The position numbers and the translations under genes were made by a program. From Salinibacter altiplanensis (GTDB taxonomy: Bacteria > Bacteroidota > Rhodothermia > Rhodothermales > Salinibacteraceae), in assembly GCF_002894645.1 (NCBI RefSeq), contig NZ_NCQY01000009.1, positions 190,433-254,432 of the forward strand: a stretch of DNA of 64,000 bases. The letters run 5' to 3'. This document shows positions 213 to 23,436 of this stretch, in pieces. The notes beneath the pieces were generated by a model. It had not been told where the DNA came from, searched no databases, and saw only the letters and a program-made list of their open reading frames with translations. Positions within the stretch are counted from its first letter, which is position 1; each line of letters starts with the position of its first letter.

Positions 213-2231
213 ATGCCTCTTCGCTTCCGCCTCCTCGCCGGCGTTCTGGTCGCGGCGCTCGCTCCTATGCTCGGCGGCTCGGCCCTTGCCCAGCAGAGTC
301 CCGAGGACGTTCCGCCCCACAACCTCACGTCGTTCGCGCCGGTCGACTTCCCCACCCCGAATCGGTACCGGGACGCCGACGGAAGTCCCGGACGTGCCTA
401 CTGGCAGAACGAGGCCGACTACCGGATCGACGTCGCGCTCGACACGGCCACCAACCGGGTCACCGGCACCGAGACGATCACCTACACGAACAATGCCCCG
501 GAGGCCCTGGAGCGGCTCTGGGTACAGCTGGAGCAGAACTACTTCAAGACGGGCAGCCGCGGCAACGCCGCCGTGTCCGCCGACGCCCGCTTCGGGGGCT
601 TCTTTGAGGAGGCCGGATACGACCTCTCCAACCTTCGCATCCAACGGGATGGGGAGACGGCGACCCCGGACACGCTCGTCGACGGCACCCGGATGCGCGT
701 ATCGCTCGACGCACCGCTCGCGTCCGGCGACAGCCTGCAGCTCTCGTTCGACTTCGAGTACACGCTGCCGAAGGACGGCGCCGACCGCCACGGCTGGATG
801 GACATGGAGGACGGCACGGTCTACCAGTTCGCCCAGTGGTACCCCCGGATGTACGTCTACGACGATGTCCACGGCTGGAACCCGCTTCCCTACCTAGGGC
901 AGGGCGAGTACTACCTGGAGTACGGCACCTTCAACGTCAACATCACAGTGCCGCGCGACATGATCGTGGGTGGCACCGGACGTCTCCAGAACCCCGATGA
1001 GGTCTTGACCGACACGCAGCGGGATCGCCTGGCCGACGCCCGGGAGAGCCGTGAGTCGGTCATGATTATCGACAGCACCGAGGTGGGACGCCCCGACACT
1101 CGTCCCGACGGGGAGGGCCCCCTCACCTGGCGGTACGAGGCCGATCGGGTGCGCGACTTTGCGTGGGCGGCCTCCCAGGCCTTCATCTGGGACGCCGCGC
1201 GGGCCGACGCGGGGGACCGCACGGTGCTGGCCCAGTCGCTGTACCCGAAGGAGGGCCTCGGCACCGACCAGGAGCCCGGCTGGGAGCGGTCGACCGCGTA
1301 CACGCAGCACTCCATCGAGTTCTACTCCGACTTCGTGACGCCGTATCCCTACCCCAACGCGATCAACGTGGCCGGGCGGGCGCAGGGCATGGAGTACCCG
1401 CAGATCGTGTTCTGCGACGTCAACTCGCGGGGGCGCTCTCTCTTCCAGGTCACCGACCACGAGTTCGGCCACACCTGGTTTCCGATGGTCGTCGGGTCCG
1501 ACGAGCGCCGCTGGGTCTGGATGGACGAGGGCCTGAACACGTTCATAAACCAGTACTCGGCACTCGACTTCTACGGCCAGGGCCGGGTGCCTCCGGCAAA
1601 GGTCATGGGCGGCCTCTCAAACTACGTGACGAAGCAGATGGACTCGCCCTTCGGGGACCAGCCCATCATGACGTACGCCGATCGCATTCGGGACGACGCC
1701 CTCGGGTTTCTCGCCTACCTGAAGCCGGGCTACGGCCTCATGGTGCTGCGCGAGCACGTGCTGGGGCCCGAGCGTTTCGACTCGGCCTTCAAGGAATACG
1801 TCGACCGGTGGGCCTACAAGCACCCGAAGCCCGCCGACTTTTTCCGCACCATGGAGGACGTAAGCGGGGAGGACCTGGACTGGTTCTGGCGCAGCTGGTT
1901 CTACGAGACAGACGCGCTGGACCCGGCGGTCGACTCGGTGGCGACCGGCGACACCACGATGGTAACGATCTCGCAGAACAAGGAGCTGATGCTGCCGGTG
2001 ACCGTGCAGCTCACCCACGCGGACGGCTCGACCGAGCAGCGCCGCGTCCCCGCCGAGGCCTTCTACACCCAGGACACCAACACGCTCCGCGTAACGGATG
2101 GCCCGCTGCGGAAGGTGACCATCGACCCCAACCAGATTCTACCGGACATGAACCGGGGCAACAACACCTGGACGCCGTCGGACGCCGTGGAGTCCTCTTC
2201 CACGGGATCCTCCTCTAGCTCGGACCGCTAG
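213..2231 (+). CDS. Secreted M1-family metallopeptidase (aminopeptidase N-like)
   Basis: 672 residues. A gluzincin peptidase expected to hydrolyse N-terminal residues from peptides outside the cytoplasm. The first 26 or so residues form a signal peptide ending ALA-QQ. The zinc motif HEFGH lies at about residues 416-420 and the third zinc ligand is the Glu of MDEG near 439, the normal M1 spacing. A GMEYP substrate-binding motif near residue 392 replaces the classical GAMEN, as is usual in this Bacteroidota subgroup. The C terminus ends in a Ser-rich tail of about 15 residues. It is transcribed toward the nucleoside transporter but separated by 208 bases with a hairpin, so it is probably monocistronic. 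Family assignment is firm; the substrate is unknown. Confidence 0.93.
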   Translation: MPLRFRLLAGVLVAALAPMLGGSALAQQSPEDVPPHNLTSFAPVDFPTPNRYRDADGSPGRAYWQNEADYRIDVALDTATNRVTGTETITYTNNAPEALERLWVQLEQNYFKTGSRGNAAVSADARFGGFFEEAGYDLSNLRIQRDGETATPDTLVDGTRMRVSLDAPLASGDSLQLSFDFEYTLPKDGADRHGWMDMEDGTVYQFAQWYPRMYVYDDVHGWNPLPYLGQGEYYLEYGTFNVNITVPRDMIVGGTGRLQNPDEVLTDTQRDRLADARESRESVMIIDSTEVGRPDTRPDGEGPLTWRYEADRVRDFAWAASQAFIWDAARADAGDRTVLAQSLYPKEGLGTDQEPGWERSTAYTQHSIEFYSDFVTPYPYPNAINVAGRAQGMEYPQIVFCDVNSRGRSLFQVTDHEFGHTWFPMVVGSDERRWVWMDEGLNTFINQYSALDFYGQGRVPPAKVMGGLSNYVTKQMDSPFGDQPIMTYADRIRDDALGFLAYLKPGYGLMVLREHVLGPERFDSAFKEYVDRWAYKHPKPADFFRTMEDVSGEDLDWFWRSWFYETDALDPAVDSVATGDTTMVTISQNKELMLPVTVQLTHADGSTEQRRVPAEAFYTQDTNTLRVTDGPLRKVTIDPNQILPDMNRGNNTWTPSDAVESSSTGSSSSSDR

Positions 2232-2263
2232 AAGGGGACGAGCCCCGCTTTGCTGCTTCTCCT

Positions 2264-2297
2264 CGAGGGCACCGGGCCTCCGCCGGGTGCCCTCGTC
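2264..2297 (+). terminator. Hairpin after the M1 peptidase gene
   Basis: A 10-bp GC-rich stem (arms 2264-2273 and 2286-2295) lies 33 bases after the stop codon. It is followed by a T-poor run, so it is a weak candidate for intrinsic termination. Confidence 0.45.
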
Positions 2298-2439
2298 GTG
2301 TTTGCAGGGGGGCGAGACGCGCGACAGGCACTCGCGGTGCGGCCAACTTGTGTTCGCGTCCCTGGTGGTTATTTTACGCTCGGCTCGGGGGGAAGGGCTC
2401 CACTGCACTATCCTCTCGTCTACCCCCTTGCGCGTCTCC

Positions 2440-3750
2440 ATGTCGCTTCCCGTCGCCCTGCTCCGTGGCCTCATCGGCGTGGCTGTCTTCATCGGCATTG
2501 CCGTGCTGTTCTCCACCAACCGCAAGGCCATCAACTGGCGGCTCGTGGGCATGGGGATCGGGCTGCAGCTCCTCTTCGCGCTCCTCGTCCTGAAGACCGG
2601 GCCGGGCGAGATGCTGTTCGACACCCTCGCCACGTTTTTTGACACGCTGCTGTCGTTTACGTACGAGGGGTCGGAGTTCATCTTCGGCGACCTGGGCAAT
2701 CCGGACGAGGGCAACAACTTTGCCTTCCAGGTGCTGCCGACGATCGTCTTTTTCGCCTCGCTGATGGGGGTGCTCTACCACCTGCGCATCGTGCAGCCAC
2801 TCGTGAACGGAATGGGGTGGGTGATGCAGAAGACGCTGCGCATCTCGGGGGCCGAGTCGCTGGCCGCCGCGGCGAACGTGTTCATCGGGCAGACGGAGGC
2901 CCCCCTGGCCGTGAAGCCGTACGTGGAAGACATGACGCGCAGCGAGATCATGACGCTCATGACGGGGGGCATGGCGACGATCGCCGGCGGGGTCCTGGCC
3001 GCCTACATCGGGTTTTTGGGCGGGGACTCGCCCGAGTCGCGACAGCTCTTCGCGAAGCATCTCCTGTCGGCCTCGGTGATGAGCGCCCCCGCAGCCATCG
3101 TGATGGCGAAAATTCTGGTGCCGGAGACCGAAACGCCCGACACCCAAGGGGGCGCTGAAGTTCAGGACACCGAGGGGGCGGACAACGTCATCGAGGCCGC
3201 CGCCAACGGCGCCTCCGACGGGCTGCACCTCGCCCTGAACGTGGGGGCCATGCTGCTGGCGTTTTTGGCCCTCATCGGCACCATCAACGCCGGCTTTGAG
3301 TGGGTGGGCGCGCCGGTGGTCTACGGCGTCGAGCTCTACGACGTGAACCAGCTCGTGGCCCAGACGTCCGGCGGCCGCTTTGAGGCGCTCTCGCTGGAGG
3401 CGATCTTCGGATTCCTCTTCGCCCCGCTGGCCTGGGCGATGGGCGTGGGGGCGGCCGACATTCTGCAGTTCGGCACGCTGCTCGGCGAGAAGGTGGCCGT
3501 GAACGAGTTCGTGGCCTACGCCTCGCTGCGCGACCTCCAGGGGGCAATCAGCGAACGGTCCATGATCATCGGCACGTACGCCCTGTGTGGATTCGCCAAC
3601 TTCTCATCCATCGCGATCCAGATTGGCGGCATTGGCGGCATCGCGCCGTCGCGCAAGAGCGAGATCGCGGCGCTCGGCCTGCGGGCTGTGCTCGGGGGTG
3701 CCCTTGCGTCCTGGCTCACGGCCACGGTTGCCGGCGTCCTCGTGGCCTAG
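2440..3750 (+). CDS. nupC: NupC-type concentrative nucleoside transporter (CNT family)
   Basis: 436 residues of an inner-membrane Na+ or H+ coupled nucleoside symporter. The ATG at 2440 begins MSLPVALLRG, immediately the first membrane helix; the frame stays open upstream to 2287 but that part is not protein-like. Visible family landmarks are the GQTEAPLAVKPY segment (nucleoside and cation binding loop), the MTGGMATIAGG stretch and the C-terminal GFANFSSIAIQIGGIGG segment. Between the halves there is an acidic hydrophilic insert of about 35 residues (PETETPDTQGG onward), probably cytoplasmic and fitting a halophile. Single gene, with a bidirectional hairpin after it. Confidence 0.95.
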   Translation: MSLPVALLRGLIGVAVFIGIAVLFSTNRKAINWRLVGMGIGLQLLFALLVLKTGPGEMLFDTLATFFDTLLSFTYEGSEFIFGDLGNPDEGNNFAFQVLPTIVFFASLMGVLYHLRIVQPLVNGMGWVMQKTLRISGAESLAAAANVFIGQTEAPLAVKPYVEDMTRSEIMTLMTGGMATIAGGVLAAYIGFLGGDSPESRQLFAKHLLSASVMSAPAAIVMAKILVPETETPDTQGGAEVQDTEGADNVIEAAANGASDGLHLALNVGAMLLAFLALIGTINAGFEWVGAPVVYGVELYDVNQLVAQTSGGRFEALSLEAIFGFLFAPLAWAMGVGAADILQFGTLLGEKVAVNEFVAYASLRDLQGAISERSMIIGTYALCGFANFSSIAIQIGGIGGIAPSRKSEIAALGLRAVLGGALASWLTATVAGVLVA

Positions 3751-19014: not shown

Positions 19015-19713
19015 TCAGCACAACCGGTCGTGCAGCTCGGCCCAGTCCGAGAAGGCGAAGCTTCGCTCGTTCGTCGACCGTCCGTTGGTGCCGTTCCGGG
19101 CGTACCAGGCCACGCGCCATCCCACCGGCTGAGCGCCCTCCACGTCGGACCGGTACGAGTCGCCCACGTAGAGCACGTCCTCGTGGGGGACGCCTGCCCT
19201 CTCGGTGGCATGGTCGAAAATCTCCGGGTCGGGCTTCAGGACCCCAACGTCCTCACAAATCACGAGGGCCTCGGTCCGCTCGCGGAGCTGGGGAAACTGG
19301 TCGAACTTCTTCTCCTGCACCTCCGCGAAGCCGTTGGTGATCACGCCCACCGGATAGCGATCGGCGACGGCCAAGAAGGCCTCCTGTGCCCCCGGAATGA
19401 AGGCCCAGTGCTCGGCGTAGCGCTGTATGTAGTACCGGGCGACGAGGGTTGCGTCGGCGTGGGGGGCATCCACGGCCTCCAGCAGTCCCTCGAACCGCTG
19501 CTGCTGCACCGCCTGCTTGCCGATCGTTCCGTCGGCGTAGCGGCGCCAAAGCGGCGTATTGATGGCGTGGTAGGTCTCCTGCAGCTCGTCCACCGAGAGG
19601 GCCCCGAAGAGGGCCGAGTAGCGGGTCCGCGTGTCAGCCAGGGCCTCCCGCTCGGCCTTTTGGTGGTCGAGCAGGGTGTCGTCGAGATCGAAGTAGACGA
19701 ATTCGGGGTCCAT
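19015..19713 (-). CDS. HAD hydrolase, YjjG-like pyrimidine nucleotidase type
   Basis: 232 residues from the ATG at 19713 (MDPEFVYFDLDDTLLD); the longer frame to 19842 is rejected. Motif I is DLDDTLLD; motif II the Thr of VGVITNGF; motif III the Lys of GVLKPDPEIF; motif IV GDSYRSDVEGA. The pattern DDTLxD with KPDPEIF resembles YjjG-type nucleotidases and 2-haloacid dehalogenase-like phosphatases. It is the third gene of an apparent minus-strand group behind the SPT-type and acyltransferase genes (55-base spacing), so a role on a lipid phosphate cannot be excluded, although the family is normally soluble and nucleotide-directed. Confidence 0.85.
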   Translation of the reverse strand: MDPEFVYFDLDDTLLDHQKAEREALADTRTRYSALFGALSVDELQETYHAINTPLWRRYADGTIGKQAVQQQRFEGLLEAVDAPHADATLVARYYIQRYAEHWAFIPGAQEAFLAVADRYPVGVITNGFAEVQEKKFDQFPQLRERTEALVICEDVGVLKPDPEIFDHATERAGVPHEDVLYVGDSYRSDVEGAQPVGWRVAWYARNGTNGRSTNERSFAFSDWAELHDRLC

Positions 19714-19768
19714 CGCGAGGGAGGGATGTGAGGGGGCGGGCGTCGGCGGGGGGCGACCGGTCGTGTCC

Positions 19769-20938
19769 TCAGCCGGTTTCGGAAAGGGCCGCCTCGAACA
19801 TTGCGTATTCCTTATCGACGACGCCCCCCAGCGACTCGACATGATTTTTGAGGCGATCGTTCGTGTCGAGCACCCAGCTCATCTCACAGGCCGGGTAGCC
19901 ATTCGCCGGTCCGTTTTCGATGGTGGCGAGGACGAGCATGCTGTCCAGTCCCTTCCCCTGATAGTCCTTCCGGACGCCCATGAGGGGCATGCGACACTTG
20001 TGGACGCCGTACTGCATGTGGAGAAACAGCGTCGTGAGGCCGGACGGTACGCCGTACGGAAAGAGGCGGCCGTCCGGGACGTGCTGCAGCGCCTGATTCA
20101 CGTCCGGGAGCGCCACTGAGAAGCCCACGGGGGTGCCCTCATGCTCCACGAAGAACACGATCTCGGGGTCGACGATCTGCTTCAGCTCGTCGGCGAGCTG
20201 CTGAAGCTCCCCCTCTGTCATGGGCACGAAGCCCCAGTTGTCGGACCACGCGTCGTTGTAGATGTCGCGGACGGTGCGGACCTCCTCCTCGAGACGGTCC
20301 ATGTCGAGCGTGCGTAGGGAGAGGCCCGGCGTGCGTCGTTTGACAAGCTCCACGCCGCGCTGCAGCCGTTCGTACTCCGCGTACTTCTTGTGGAGGTAGT
20401 ACGCCCACATTGTCATTGCGCGCGTGAGGCCGTAGCGCTCCAGAAAGGCCTCGTGGTACGGGGGATTGTAGGGCATGAGGACCGACGGCCGCCGGTCAAA
20501 CCCATCCACCAGCAGCCCGGCCGTATCGTTGAGCGACGGGTTGGCCGGCCCGCGCATGCGACGAAGGCCCTGCCCGCGGAGCCAGTCGGCAGCGGCGTCG
20601 AGGAGCGCCTCGGCCACGGCGTAGTCCTCTACGCACTCGAAGAAGCCGAAGAAGCCAGTCGCGTCTTCGTGCTTGTCGAGGTGCATGCCGTTGACGATGC
20701 CCGCAATGCGCCCGACGACGGTGCCGGAGGCGTCCTCAGCCAGGAACAGCTGCATGTCGCCGTGTTCGAAGAAGGCATTGGCGGACGGGTCGAGCGTGTC
20801 TTTCACGTCGCGGCGCAGCGGCGGCACCCACTGCGGGTAGCGCCCCGGATAGAAGTCGTAGGGGACATCGATGAACCGTGTTCGGGCGCGCCGCCCCTCG
20901 ACGGGGCGGACGGTCACGGCGGAGGTGGAAGCCGGCAT
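19769..20938 (-). CDS. GNAT-fold acyltransferase, candidate bacterial ceramide synthase-like
   Basis: 389 residues from the ATG at 20938; the frame extends to 21268 without support. The N-terminal half has VPYDFYPGRYPQWVPPLR, then NAFFEHGDMQLFLAE and TVVGRIAGIVN, the pattern of a large GNAT-related family; the C-terminal half has FFVEHEGTPVGFSVAL and GVRKDYQGKGLDSMLV, an acyl-CoA pyrophosphate-loop-like segment. Proteins of this type sit beside serine palmitoyltransferase in several bacteria, and a Caulobacter member acts as a ceramide synthase. Here the gene follows the SPT-type gene by 113 bases on the same strand. N-acylation of a sphingoid or capnine base is therefore a reasonable inference, not a demonstrated function. 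Confidence 0.65.
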   Translation of the reverse strand: MPASTSAVTVRPVEGRRARTRFIDVPYDFYPGRYPQWVPPLRRDVKDTLDPSANAFFEHGDMQLFLAEDASGTVVGRIAGIVNGMHLDKHEDATGFFGFFECVEDYAVAEALLDAAADWLRGQGLRRMRGPANPSLNDTAGLLVDGFDRRPSVLMPYNPPYHEAFLERYGLTRAMTMWAYYLHKKYAEYERLQRGVELVKRRTPGLSLRTLDMDRLEEEVRTVRDIYNDAWSDNWGFVPMTEGELQQLADELKQIVDPEIVFFVEHEGTPVGFSVALPDVNQALQHVPDGRLFPYGVPSGLTTLFLHMQYGVHKCRMPLMGVRKDYQGKGLDSMLVLATIENGPANGYPACEMSWVLDTNDRLKNHVESLGGVVDKEYAMFEAALSETG

Positions 20939-21051
20939 GCAAAGCGAGCGGGGTGCTGTGGAAAGCCACGCGGAAACGCCGCCCCTCTCCGGCGAAGGTC
21001 GGACAACGACGGCGTCGGTACGAACCGAATGGGGACGCTGTTCGGGAACGA

Positions 21052-22380
21052 CTACGCGCTCACCGACACGTCGTGCCCGTTCGTTCCGATCACCCCCATC
21101 TTTGTGCCTACCCTGTAGAAGGCGTCGAGAATTTCGTCCAGTTCCTCGTCGGAGTGCGTGGCCATGTAGGAAGTGCGCATGAGCGCCTGTCCCTTCGGCA
21201 CGGCGGGCGGCACCACGGCGTTGACGAAGACCCCCTCGTCGATCAGCTCTCGCCAGAAGCGGAAGCACAGCTCCATGTCGCCAATGACGACGGGAATGAT
21301 TGGCGTCTCACTCTCCCACACGTCGAAGCCCAGGTTGCGAAATCCGTCGCGCATGTAGTCCGAGATCTCGTGCAGCCGGTCGAGCCGCTCCGGCTCGTTC
21401 TGGAGAATCTCCAGGGACTTCAGGACGGTGGCCACGGTAGACGGCGGCATCGACGCGCTGAAGACGTGGGTGGACGCCTCGTGACGGATGTACTCGATCA
21501 CGTCACGGTCCCCCACGCAGAATCCTCCAATGGAGGCAAAGCTCTTCGAAAAGGTGCCCGTGATGAGGTGCACGTCGTCCTTGCGGCCAAACGTGGAGGC
21601 CGACCCGCGCCCGCCCTCGCCCACAACCCCGATCGCGTGGGCGTCATCGAGCATAAGGGCCGCGTCGAACTCGTCTGCGAGGTCGAGCAGGGCGGGCACC
21701 CGTGCAATTTTGCCACTCATGGAGAAGACGCCGTCGGTGGCAATGAGCTTGCCCGCGTCCGGGCGCTCCTCATGGGTCCGCTCGAGCATTTTCCGGAGGT
21801 GATCAAAGTCGTTGTGGCGGTACCGCTTGGTCTCCGCAAGGCTTTTCTGCGCCCCGGCATTGATACAGGCGTGGTTGTCCTTGTCGGAGAAGATAATGTC
21901 TCCGCGCCCGGCCACGGCCTCCAACACGCCTTCGTTTGTCATGTAGCCGGTGGAGAACAGCACAGCCTTCTCTTTCCCCATGAAGTTGGCCAGCCGCTCC
22001 TCCAGCTCCAGGTGCAGGTCGAGCGTGCCGTTCAGGAAGCGACTGCCCGTACAGCCAGTGCCGTACGTGGCCGTCGCCTCTTGCGCCGCCTCCTTCACAC
22101 GAGGGTCCGCGGTGAGCCCGAGGTAGTTGTTCGACCCTGCCATCACGAGTTCATCTCCGTTCATGACGGCCCGGGAGCCTTCGCTCTCCTCAATGGGCCG
22201 GAAGTACGGGTACAGGTCCGCCTGCTTCAACTTGGCGTAGTCGCCCGAGGGGTCGAAGAAGCGATGACACTTCTCAAACAGGGAGGGCTCTTCCTCGGAA
22301 GACCCTTCTTGGGAGGACACCTCCTGTTCGGACTCGTCGGACCGGGTAGACTGGCGGGGGGGGCGATCGGGGGTCGTCAT
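21052..22380 (-). CDS. Alpha-oxoamine synthase, serine palmitoyltransferase type (possible cysteate acyltransferase)
   Basis: 442 residues. PLP enzyme condensing an amino acid with an acyl thioester. The N terminus is a Ser/Glu-rich extension of about 40 residues; then YPYFRPIEESEG and MAGSNNYLGLTADPRV, a substrate-binding segment. LMLDDAHAIGVVG carries the PLP-contacting Asp and His, and TGTFSKSFASIGGF carries the Schiff-base Lys (about residue 279). That last motif matches SPT rather than KBL (GTLGKALGG) or BioF. In Salinibacter-like organisms, which make capnine-type sulfonolipids, the natural amino acid could be cysteate instead of serine. Promoter probably in the 327-base spacer upstream. 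Class is firm, substrate open. Confidence 0.82.
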   Translation of the reverse strand: MTTPDRPPRQSTRSDESEQEVSSQEGSSEEEPSLFEKCHRFFDPSGDYAKLKQADLYPYFRPIEESEGSRAVMNGDELVMAGSNNYLGLTADPRVKEAAQEATATYGTGCTGSRFLNGTLDLHLELEERLANFMGKEKAVLFSTGYMTNEGVLEAVAGRGDIIFSDKDNHACINAGAQKSLAETKRYRHNDFDHLRKMLERTHEERPDAGKLIATDGVFSMSGKIARVPALLDLADEFDAALMLDDAHAIGVVGEGGRGSASTFGRKDDVHLITGTFSKSFASIGGFCVGDRDVIEYIRHEASTHVFSASMPPSTVATVLKSLEILQNEPERLDRLHEISDYMRDGFRNLGFDVWESETPIIPVVIGDMELCFRFWRELIDEGVFVNAVVPPAVPKGQALMRTSYMATHSDEELDEILDAFYRVGTKMGVIGTNGHDVSVSA

Positions 22381-22707
22381 AAAGGCGGGAACGCAGTGCG
22401 TAGTTCAGGACGCGAAGGACGAAAGTATGCCGCGCGTTCGTGGGTGCCCGCGACTAAGCACGATCTTTTTGCATCCAAGGGTTGCCGCGCCGTTCTGAAC
22501 AAAAGTAACACGCGGCCCTGGATCCTTCCCCCGTTTCTGGTGTGCCACGACTCTCAAATTCGGATGTTGGCTAAATGCGCCCCACCAGTACGGTTTTTGA
22601 CGCAGGGGTTTCACCAATTTCCGGCATCGAAGGGCTTCCACCCCATCCTCCAGGCAATATTTTGGGGCAGTTTTACATCTTGCCCAGTGCAGGCGTCGTC
22701 TCCATTG
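22381..22707. other. 327-base intergenic region upstream of the SPT-type gene
   Basis: Lies between the DUF5683 stop and the SPT-type start, both on the minus strand. It is less GC-rich than the flanking genes and presumably holds the promoter of the lipid gene pair. I found no tRNA, ORF or strong hairpin. Confidence 0.5.
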
Positions 22708-23436
22708 TCATCGAAACCGCATGTGGAGACGGATCCCGATGCCGTTAAAATTCCAGGAAGACGTTTCGCCAAGTGCACGATCGAAGCTCTTGTGCCGTCC
22801 GGCCAGCACCGGCTCCCCCCCACTCGGACGCACCTCAAGCGCAACGCCTCCCACGTCAAAGCTCAGCAGGTGCGCACTGACGTACGCGTCCAGGATGGTG
22901 AGCGCGTAGAACAGACCCGTTCCCAGAATGGAGAGGTCGCGCCAGCGCCGATACTGGTCGCGCTCGTCTCGGAGTTGACGCCCTCCAACATTGCTGGTCT
23001 CCGGGTTCCCCCCCAGCCGCACGACGGCCTCGTCGTACTCCGACTTCAACTGCTCGTATGGATTTCTCCCGCCATTTTCTTCGGCCCGGTTTCGCCCGAT
23101 TACGTAAAGATTGGCGTCCCGGAACAGACGATAGCGCTGGGTCAGGGTGTAGATGGCGTAGCCGCCGCCCGCCAGGCCCGCGTACGCGAACGGCAGTTTG
23201 TAATACTGACGATTGTAGAATTGTCCCCATCCGGGCACGGCAGCCGCTCGCCAGAGGGCCCCGCGAGGGGAGTGGTCCGGGGGAAATCCCTGCTCCTCCA
23301 GAATCGAGGCACGCACGCTGTCCGGCTGCGCAGAGGCCGTGTCCATGCTCAGGCCGCCGCCCCAAAGCAGGGCACACACCCCCAAGCAAACCCCGATACG
23401 GCGCAGTTGGATCACGGGTACCTGGGCGACGATCAA
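22708..23436 (-). CDS. DUF5683 membrane protein
   Basis: 242 residues. Signal-peptide-like N terminus (LGVCALLWGGGLSMDTASA). The signature is ALWRAAAVPGWGQFYNRQYYKLPF, a Trp-Gly-Gln loop at the start of a membrane hairpin followed by YAGLAGGGYAIYTL; a second hydrophobic segment is LSILGTGLFYALTILDAYVSAHL. The motif P-G-x-G-Q-x-Y-N defines the DUF5683/TM2-like family in Bacteroidota, often located immediately after parB as here. Function unknown; the association with chromosome partition genes is positional. It starts 85 bases after parB. Confidence 0.78.
   Translation of the reverse strand: MIVAQVPVIQLRRIGVCLGVCALLWGGGLSMDTASAQPDSVRASILEEQGFPPDHSPRGALWRAAAVPGWGQFYNRQYYKLPFAYAGLAGGGYAIYTLTQRYRLFRDANLYVIGRNRAEENGGRNPYEQLKSEYDEAVVRLGGNPETSNVGGRQLRDERDQYRRWRDLSILGTGLFYALTILDAYVSAHLLSFDVGGVALEVRPSGGEPVLAGRHKSFDRALGETSSWNFNGIGIRLHMRFR

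Follow-up and report, generated by a model that had tools for sequence, protein, structure and literature searches.

In bacterial ceramide synthesis, the Caulobacter CerS protein CC_1154 and its E. coli counterpart YghO are listed as the acyl-CoA N-acyltransferase that dihydroceramide formation requires, the role of YghO being a proposed one (PMC9386255). The Caulobacter data favor N-acylation ahead of reduction (PMC11087976), and cerS in Rhodobacteria is described as always lying in another operon than spt (PMC11324152). For the first enzyme of such routes an active-site discriminator is available, as SulA has a lysine, Lys281, where SPT has an alanine (PMC9304779). Salinibacter produces sulfonolipids (PMC2596770). 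In the literature that we searched we found no report of Salinibacter ceramides, no paper that brings a GNAT ceramide synthase together with Bacteroides, and no enzyme named for sulfonolipid N-acylation, though that step is described.

A tandem gene pair in Salinibacter altiplanensis

We analyzed a stretch of 64,000 nucleotides from S. altiplanensis (the window; source genome G000, 3.59 Mb), in which an earlier note had pointed to a probable sphingoid or sulfonolipid gene pair. The features of the locus are as follows.

21052-22380, minus strand: spt, SPT-type alpha-oxoamine synthase (PLP), predicted serine C-acyltransferase, 442 aa
20939-21051, minus strand: intergenic gap of 113 bp within the putative spt-cerS operon (ORF coordinates)
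19769-20938, minus strand: tandem-GNAT N-acyltransferase of the CerS/YghO family, predicted ceramide synthase, 389 aa (ATG at 20938)
19015-19713, minus strand: HAD phosphatase (YjjG-like), 232 aa, the third gene, 55 bp after the GNAT gene (TIGR02254, 153.5 bits; cut-off 159.9)

The ORF coordinates agree exactly with the note's placement of the GNAT gene, next on the same strand and 113 bases past the PLP gene. No terminator-like sites were found in a scan of 19300-23000. The two genes may be cotranscribed. A longer, 499-aa reading of the GNAT frame from a GTG (to 21268) was rejected; it overlaps the PLP gene and its extension is not conserved. Because of this overlap, and because homologs align from about residue 4 to 16 of the 389-aa form, we take the shorter start to be the right one. 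It is uncertain whether the HAD phosphatase belongs to the spt-cerS unit. It follows the GNAT gene in at least 16 of the 29 other loci sampled from the order, a count in which the 1.5-kb flanks hide some cases. The YjjG-like phosphatase also stays with the GNAT gene in two loci (L021 and L080) where SPT is not adjacent.

The PLP enzyme and its likely substrate

The PLP enzyme carries GTFSKSFASIGG and matches the Pfam family Aminotran_1_2 (2.7e-56). The catalytic Asn, His and Lys and the carboxylate-binding Arg of the PLP fold-type I core are all conserved in the alignment. Its top PDB match is the SPT of Sphingobacterium multivorum (8guh/3a2b; 1.8e-119, 402 bits), and it scores about 283 bits (about 1e-83) against KBL/BioF, 224 bits (3e-65) against SulA (7u7h) and 220 bits (6e-64) against the cysteate acyltransferase (CFAT) 28eh. 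Comparison of the Schiff-base motifs, which read GTFSK(S/T)xxSxGG in SPTs, TxTLGKAxGG in KBLs, TFGKGFG in E. coli BioF and TFAKSMAxIGA in CFATs, confirmed that the 442-residue enzyme has an SPT-type lysine motif unlike that of KBL or BioF, as had been noted from the sequence. The best NCBIfam model, NF047600 (SerpalmtaseCFB, Bacteroidota SPT), gave 480.7 bits, below its curated cut-off of 640. SPT-group members outside the Sphingobacterium side likewise fall below this cut-off, and one Sphingobacterium SPT scores 714; the shortfall thus points to a narrow model rather than a different function. A second model, NF005697, was considered as a candidate CFAT model and dropped, since it marks another alpha-oxoamine synthase.

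In a tree of 55 alpha-oxoamine synthases, the PLP enzyme fell in the Bacteroidota SPT group, with CFATs and KBLs forming separate groups. With the longest branches removed, a branch supported at 99/96 set all SPTs, the PLP enzyme included, apart from the remaining sequences. AU tests, for which the groups had been named from annotation beforehand, rejected a grouping of the window clade with KBL (p-AU 0.0034) and with CFAT (p-AU 0.02). At the position of SulA Lys281, the PLP enzyme has Ala (FSASM, as in S. multivorum SPT), as does every one of the 32 SPT-group sequences. The 10 CFATs all have Lys there and the KBLs proper have Asn, while E. coli BioF and the KBL/BioF enzyme of Thermus have Thr. 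The placement inside KBL or BioF that would have told against the earlier note was therefore not observed. KBL identity was rejected on the tree and AU test, the motif, and Ala rather than Asn at the diagnostic position; BioF identity on tree placement and the lack of a TFGKG motif; and CFAT/SulA identity on Ala rather than Lys and the AU test. SulA and CFAT (7u7h, 28eh) have the superfamily and general chemistry in common with the PLP enzyme but form a clade of their own (100/100). Only two alpha-oxoamine synthases were found in the source genome, the PLP enzyme and a true KBL (639 bits, cut-off 460); the latter is 35% identical to the PLP enzyme, from which it differs in its clade, its TLGKALGG motif and its Asn at the diagnostic site. 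Together, the SPT-clade placement and the alanine favor serine over cysteate, so that we regard the enzyme as SPT-type, with serine as its probable substrate. Of the two substrates that had been proposed for a base-forming enzyme, serine is thus the one that the data favor, and cysteate, with the capnine product, is the weaker half.

Two further divergent alpha-oxoamine synthases were seen among the sampled loci. One, a 637-aa ORF (L180:775-2688, minus strand; also L181-L183), carries about 230 extra residues at its C terminus, for which there is no Pfam match. The other (L204, G227:C1:2360369-2361472; also L079) has Gln at the SulA-281 position, and a second, divergent copy of the GNAT in the same order lies about 3 kb away.

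The GNAT family and its linkage to SPT genes

Pfam recognized only a C-terminal Acetyltransf_1 domain (1e-7) in the GNAT, neither Pfam nor NCBIfam assigns it a function, and PDB gave no sequence match at all. YghO of E. coli BL21, however, is an end-to-end homolog (31% over 390 columns, 219 bits, 1e-72), and yghO in BL21 adjoins ligase, epimerase, ACP and spt genes. An AlphaFold (AF2) model built with 36 sequences is a tandem GNAT (pLDDT 87.9, pTM 0.88), whose nearest folds are MAB_4324 (7q3a; Z 25.3, 308 aligned), mycothiol synthase and Eis; fold similarity of this kind does not by itself demonstrate function. N-myristoyltransferases, which likewise transfer a long acyl chain to an amine, are also among the fold neighbors (Z about 16). 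The GNAT is thus predicted to be a ceramide synthase of the CerS/YghO family that would N-acylate a long-chain base.

Of the 394 Bacteroidota genomes sampled, 378 have the GNAT. The 16 that lack it comprise 5 with an SPT-type match, 4 in which a CFAT-type enzyme is the sole match besides KBL/BioF-like sequences, and 7 with neither. In 29 of 30 loci from the order, 25 of 25 from the class and 13 of 26 from further Bacteroidota, the gene immediately upstream of the GNAT gene, on the same strand, encodes an SPT; because these loci were collected starting from the GNATs that best match the window's, the sample is not random, and it includes none from B. thetaiotaomicron or P. gingivalis. Genomes in which the two genes do not adjoin have an SPT (48-74% identical) at another site. 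An independent scan of 80 named loci, starting from S. multivorum SPT, gave 51 with SPT-GNAT order, 5 with GNAT-SPT order and 19 with none, some of the last ending at contig ends. In all eight Sphingobacterium loci, whose SPTs are 78-87% identical to the crystallized enzyme, the GNAT lies just downstream. With about 3,000 genes per genome, the chance of such repeated adjacency is negligible. The linkage in relatives and the CerS/YghO homology thus agree with the proposal that this GNAT is of a type found beside SPT, with a ceramide synthase among its members, and the absence of an SPT link in related genomes, which would have spoken against it, was not seen. In one further locus (L081:4013-8349, genome G352), the SPT gene precedes two GNAT copies in tandem, between which lies a HAD-like sequence.

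A tree of the GNATs separates two subfamilies. Subfamily A contains the window GNAT, SPT-linked genes of many Bacteroidota, and YghO; subfamily B (100/100) contains some Bacteroidales SPT-linked genes and GNATs that adjoin CFAT genes in one family, f28, whose checked genomes have CFAT and no SPT. N360 and G130-P131 do not vary across the two subfamilies and YghO, and N228 hardly does. In one such locus (L213), a CFAT (1e-214 to PDB 28eh) lies head-to-head with a subfamily B GNAT (the two genes at 270-1388, plus strand, and 1447-2706, minus strand), and similar neighborhoods occur in many f28 genomes (L233-L259). No GNAT was found beside CFAT in the CFAT neighborhoods of other families; the CFAT-GNAT linkage is thus local. 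On the simplest reading, the GNAT family would act on any long-chain base that the local alpha-oxoamine synthase supplies, and the CFAT-adjacent branch of f28 is a candidate sulfonolipid N-acyltransferase.

The predicted ceramide route and rival readings

We consider it very likely that the spt-GNAT pair encodes the enzymes for steps one and two of ceramide synthesis in bacteria, a reading drawn from protein families, clade, active-site residues, gene linkage and modeled fold. In the proposed route, Spt, with its PLP held on the lysine of TFSKS, would bind an amino acid, probably serine, as an external aldimine and condense it with a fatty acyl thioester, with loss of CO2, to give 3-ketosphinganine. 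The tandem GNAT would then use a thioester to place another long acyl chain on the amine, which yields 3-keto-dihydroceramide; if reduction precedes N-acylation, its product would be dihydroceramide. A CerR-like NAD-dependent reductase encoded elsewhere in the genome would complete dihydroceramide. Indeed, a CerR homolog is present in the source genome (C29:515525-516478; 35% over 295 aa, 6.8e-33), unlinked to spt-GNAT, so that one genome holds a complete predicted Spt-CerS-CerR route.

The sulfonolipids of Salinibacter bear on two other readings. No CFAT was found among the 27 genomes that represent the Salinibacter family (the best matches to a CFAT query being SPT and KBL, at about 30-35%), and other members of its class and order do have CFATs. 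The archaeal-type cysteate synthase model TIGR03844 reached 19 bits in the genome, against a cut-off of 325. Either Salinibacter sulfonolipids arise by a different chemistry, or a sulfonated amino acid is a further substrate of the SPT-type enzyme. It is unlikely, in our judgment, that an SPT-clade enzyme lacking Lys281 supplies a sulfonated base besides or instead of the ceramide base, with the GNAT as its acyltransferase and the GNAT family as a general sphingoid and capnine N-acyltransferase in Bacteroidota. Still more doubtful is a dedicated sulfonolipid pair, in which cysteate would be the substrate of the PLP enzyme and the resulting capnine-type base would be N-acylated by the GNAT to yield the Salinibacter sulfonolipids. 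The known sulfonolipids, the presence of only the PLP enzyme and KBL together with the lack of CFAT in the family, and the position beside CFAT, in f28, of distantly related members of this GNAT family fit such a pair; set against these are the Ala at SulA-281, the rejected CFAT grouping and the TIGR03844 score. Moreover, the Salinibacter sulfonolipid described by Corcelli in 2004 reportedly retains its carboxyl group and is O-acylated, a structure not expected from an alpha-oxoamine synthase. Of the proposal that Salinibacter-like halophiles contain capnine-type sulfonolipids whose base this locus may form, the sulfonolipids stand (PMC2596770), and the capnine role of the PLP enzyme is disfavored by the tree and the alanine.

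It is very improbable that glycine or alanine is the substrate, with the PLP enzyme acting as a KBL/BioF-like or 1-deoxysphingolipid-forming enzyme whose product the GNAT acylates. Some alpha-oxoamine synthases are promiscuous, and B. thetaiotaomicron SPT is reported to accept alanine (PMC10056535), but a separate true KBL is present and the KBL grouping was rejected. Finally, a functionally unrelated spt and GNAT in incidental adjacency are the least probable reading: the pair is broken in half of the sampled loci from other classes and the GNAT is nearly universal in the phylum, but order, strand and short gap are kept in 29 of 30 loci of the order, in 25 of 25 of the class and in deeply diverged named genera, and the GNAT is homologous to CerS. 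The ceramide reading is thus preferred, and the initial interpretation of a sphingoid or sulfonolipid gene pair appears largely borne out, with its capnine option disfavored.

Comparison with described systems

An extremely halophilic genus known for sulfonolipids thus gains a complete predicted ceramide route. Among characterized enzymes, S. multivorum SPT (3a2b/8guh) is closest to the PLP enzyme; both belong to the SPT clade, are 50% identical over the aligned core, and share the catalytic residues and the diagnostic alanine, and the genus Sphingobacterium has the same downstream GNAT. S. multivorum SPT sits in a sister subclade, and the PLP enzyme falls short of the NCBIfam equivalog cut-off. 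The GNAT was aligned with BL21 YghO, the counterpart of Caulobacter CerS/bCerS (CC_1154), and shares subfamily A with it. The tandem supplies a concrete N-acyltransferase candidate for Sphingobacterium and its relatives, and the CFAT-adjacent branch a testable candidate for sulfonolipid N-acylation.

The arrangement differs from that described for Rhodobacteria, in that the Salinibacter GNAT gene directly follows spt, and in much of Bacteroidota spt stands in tandem with a gene of the cerS family. This widespread tandem contradicts the published separate-operon generalization (PMC11324152), a point that other papers may already have noted, and refines a second published generalization, one that covers all three genes. 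The spt-cerS pair is well supported by the data, and its recurrence offers a useful regularity at the operon level rather than a novel type of system.
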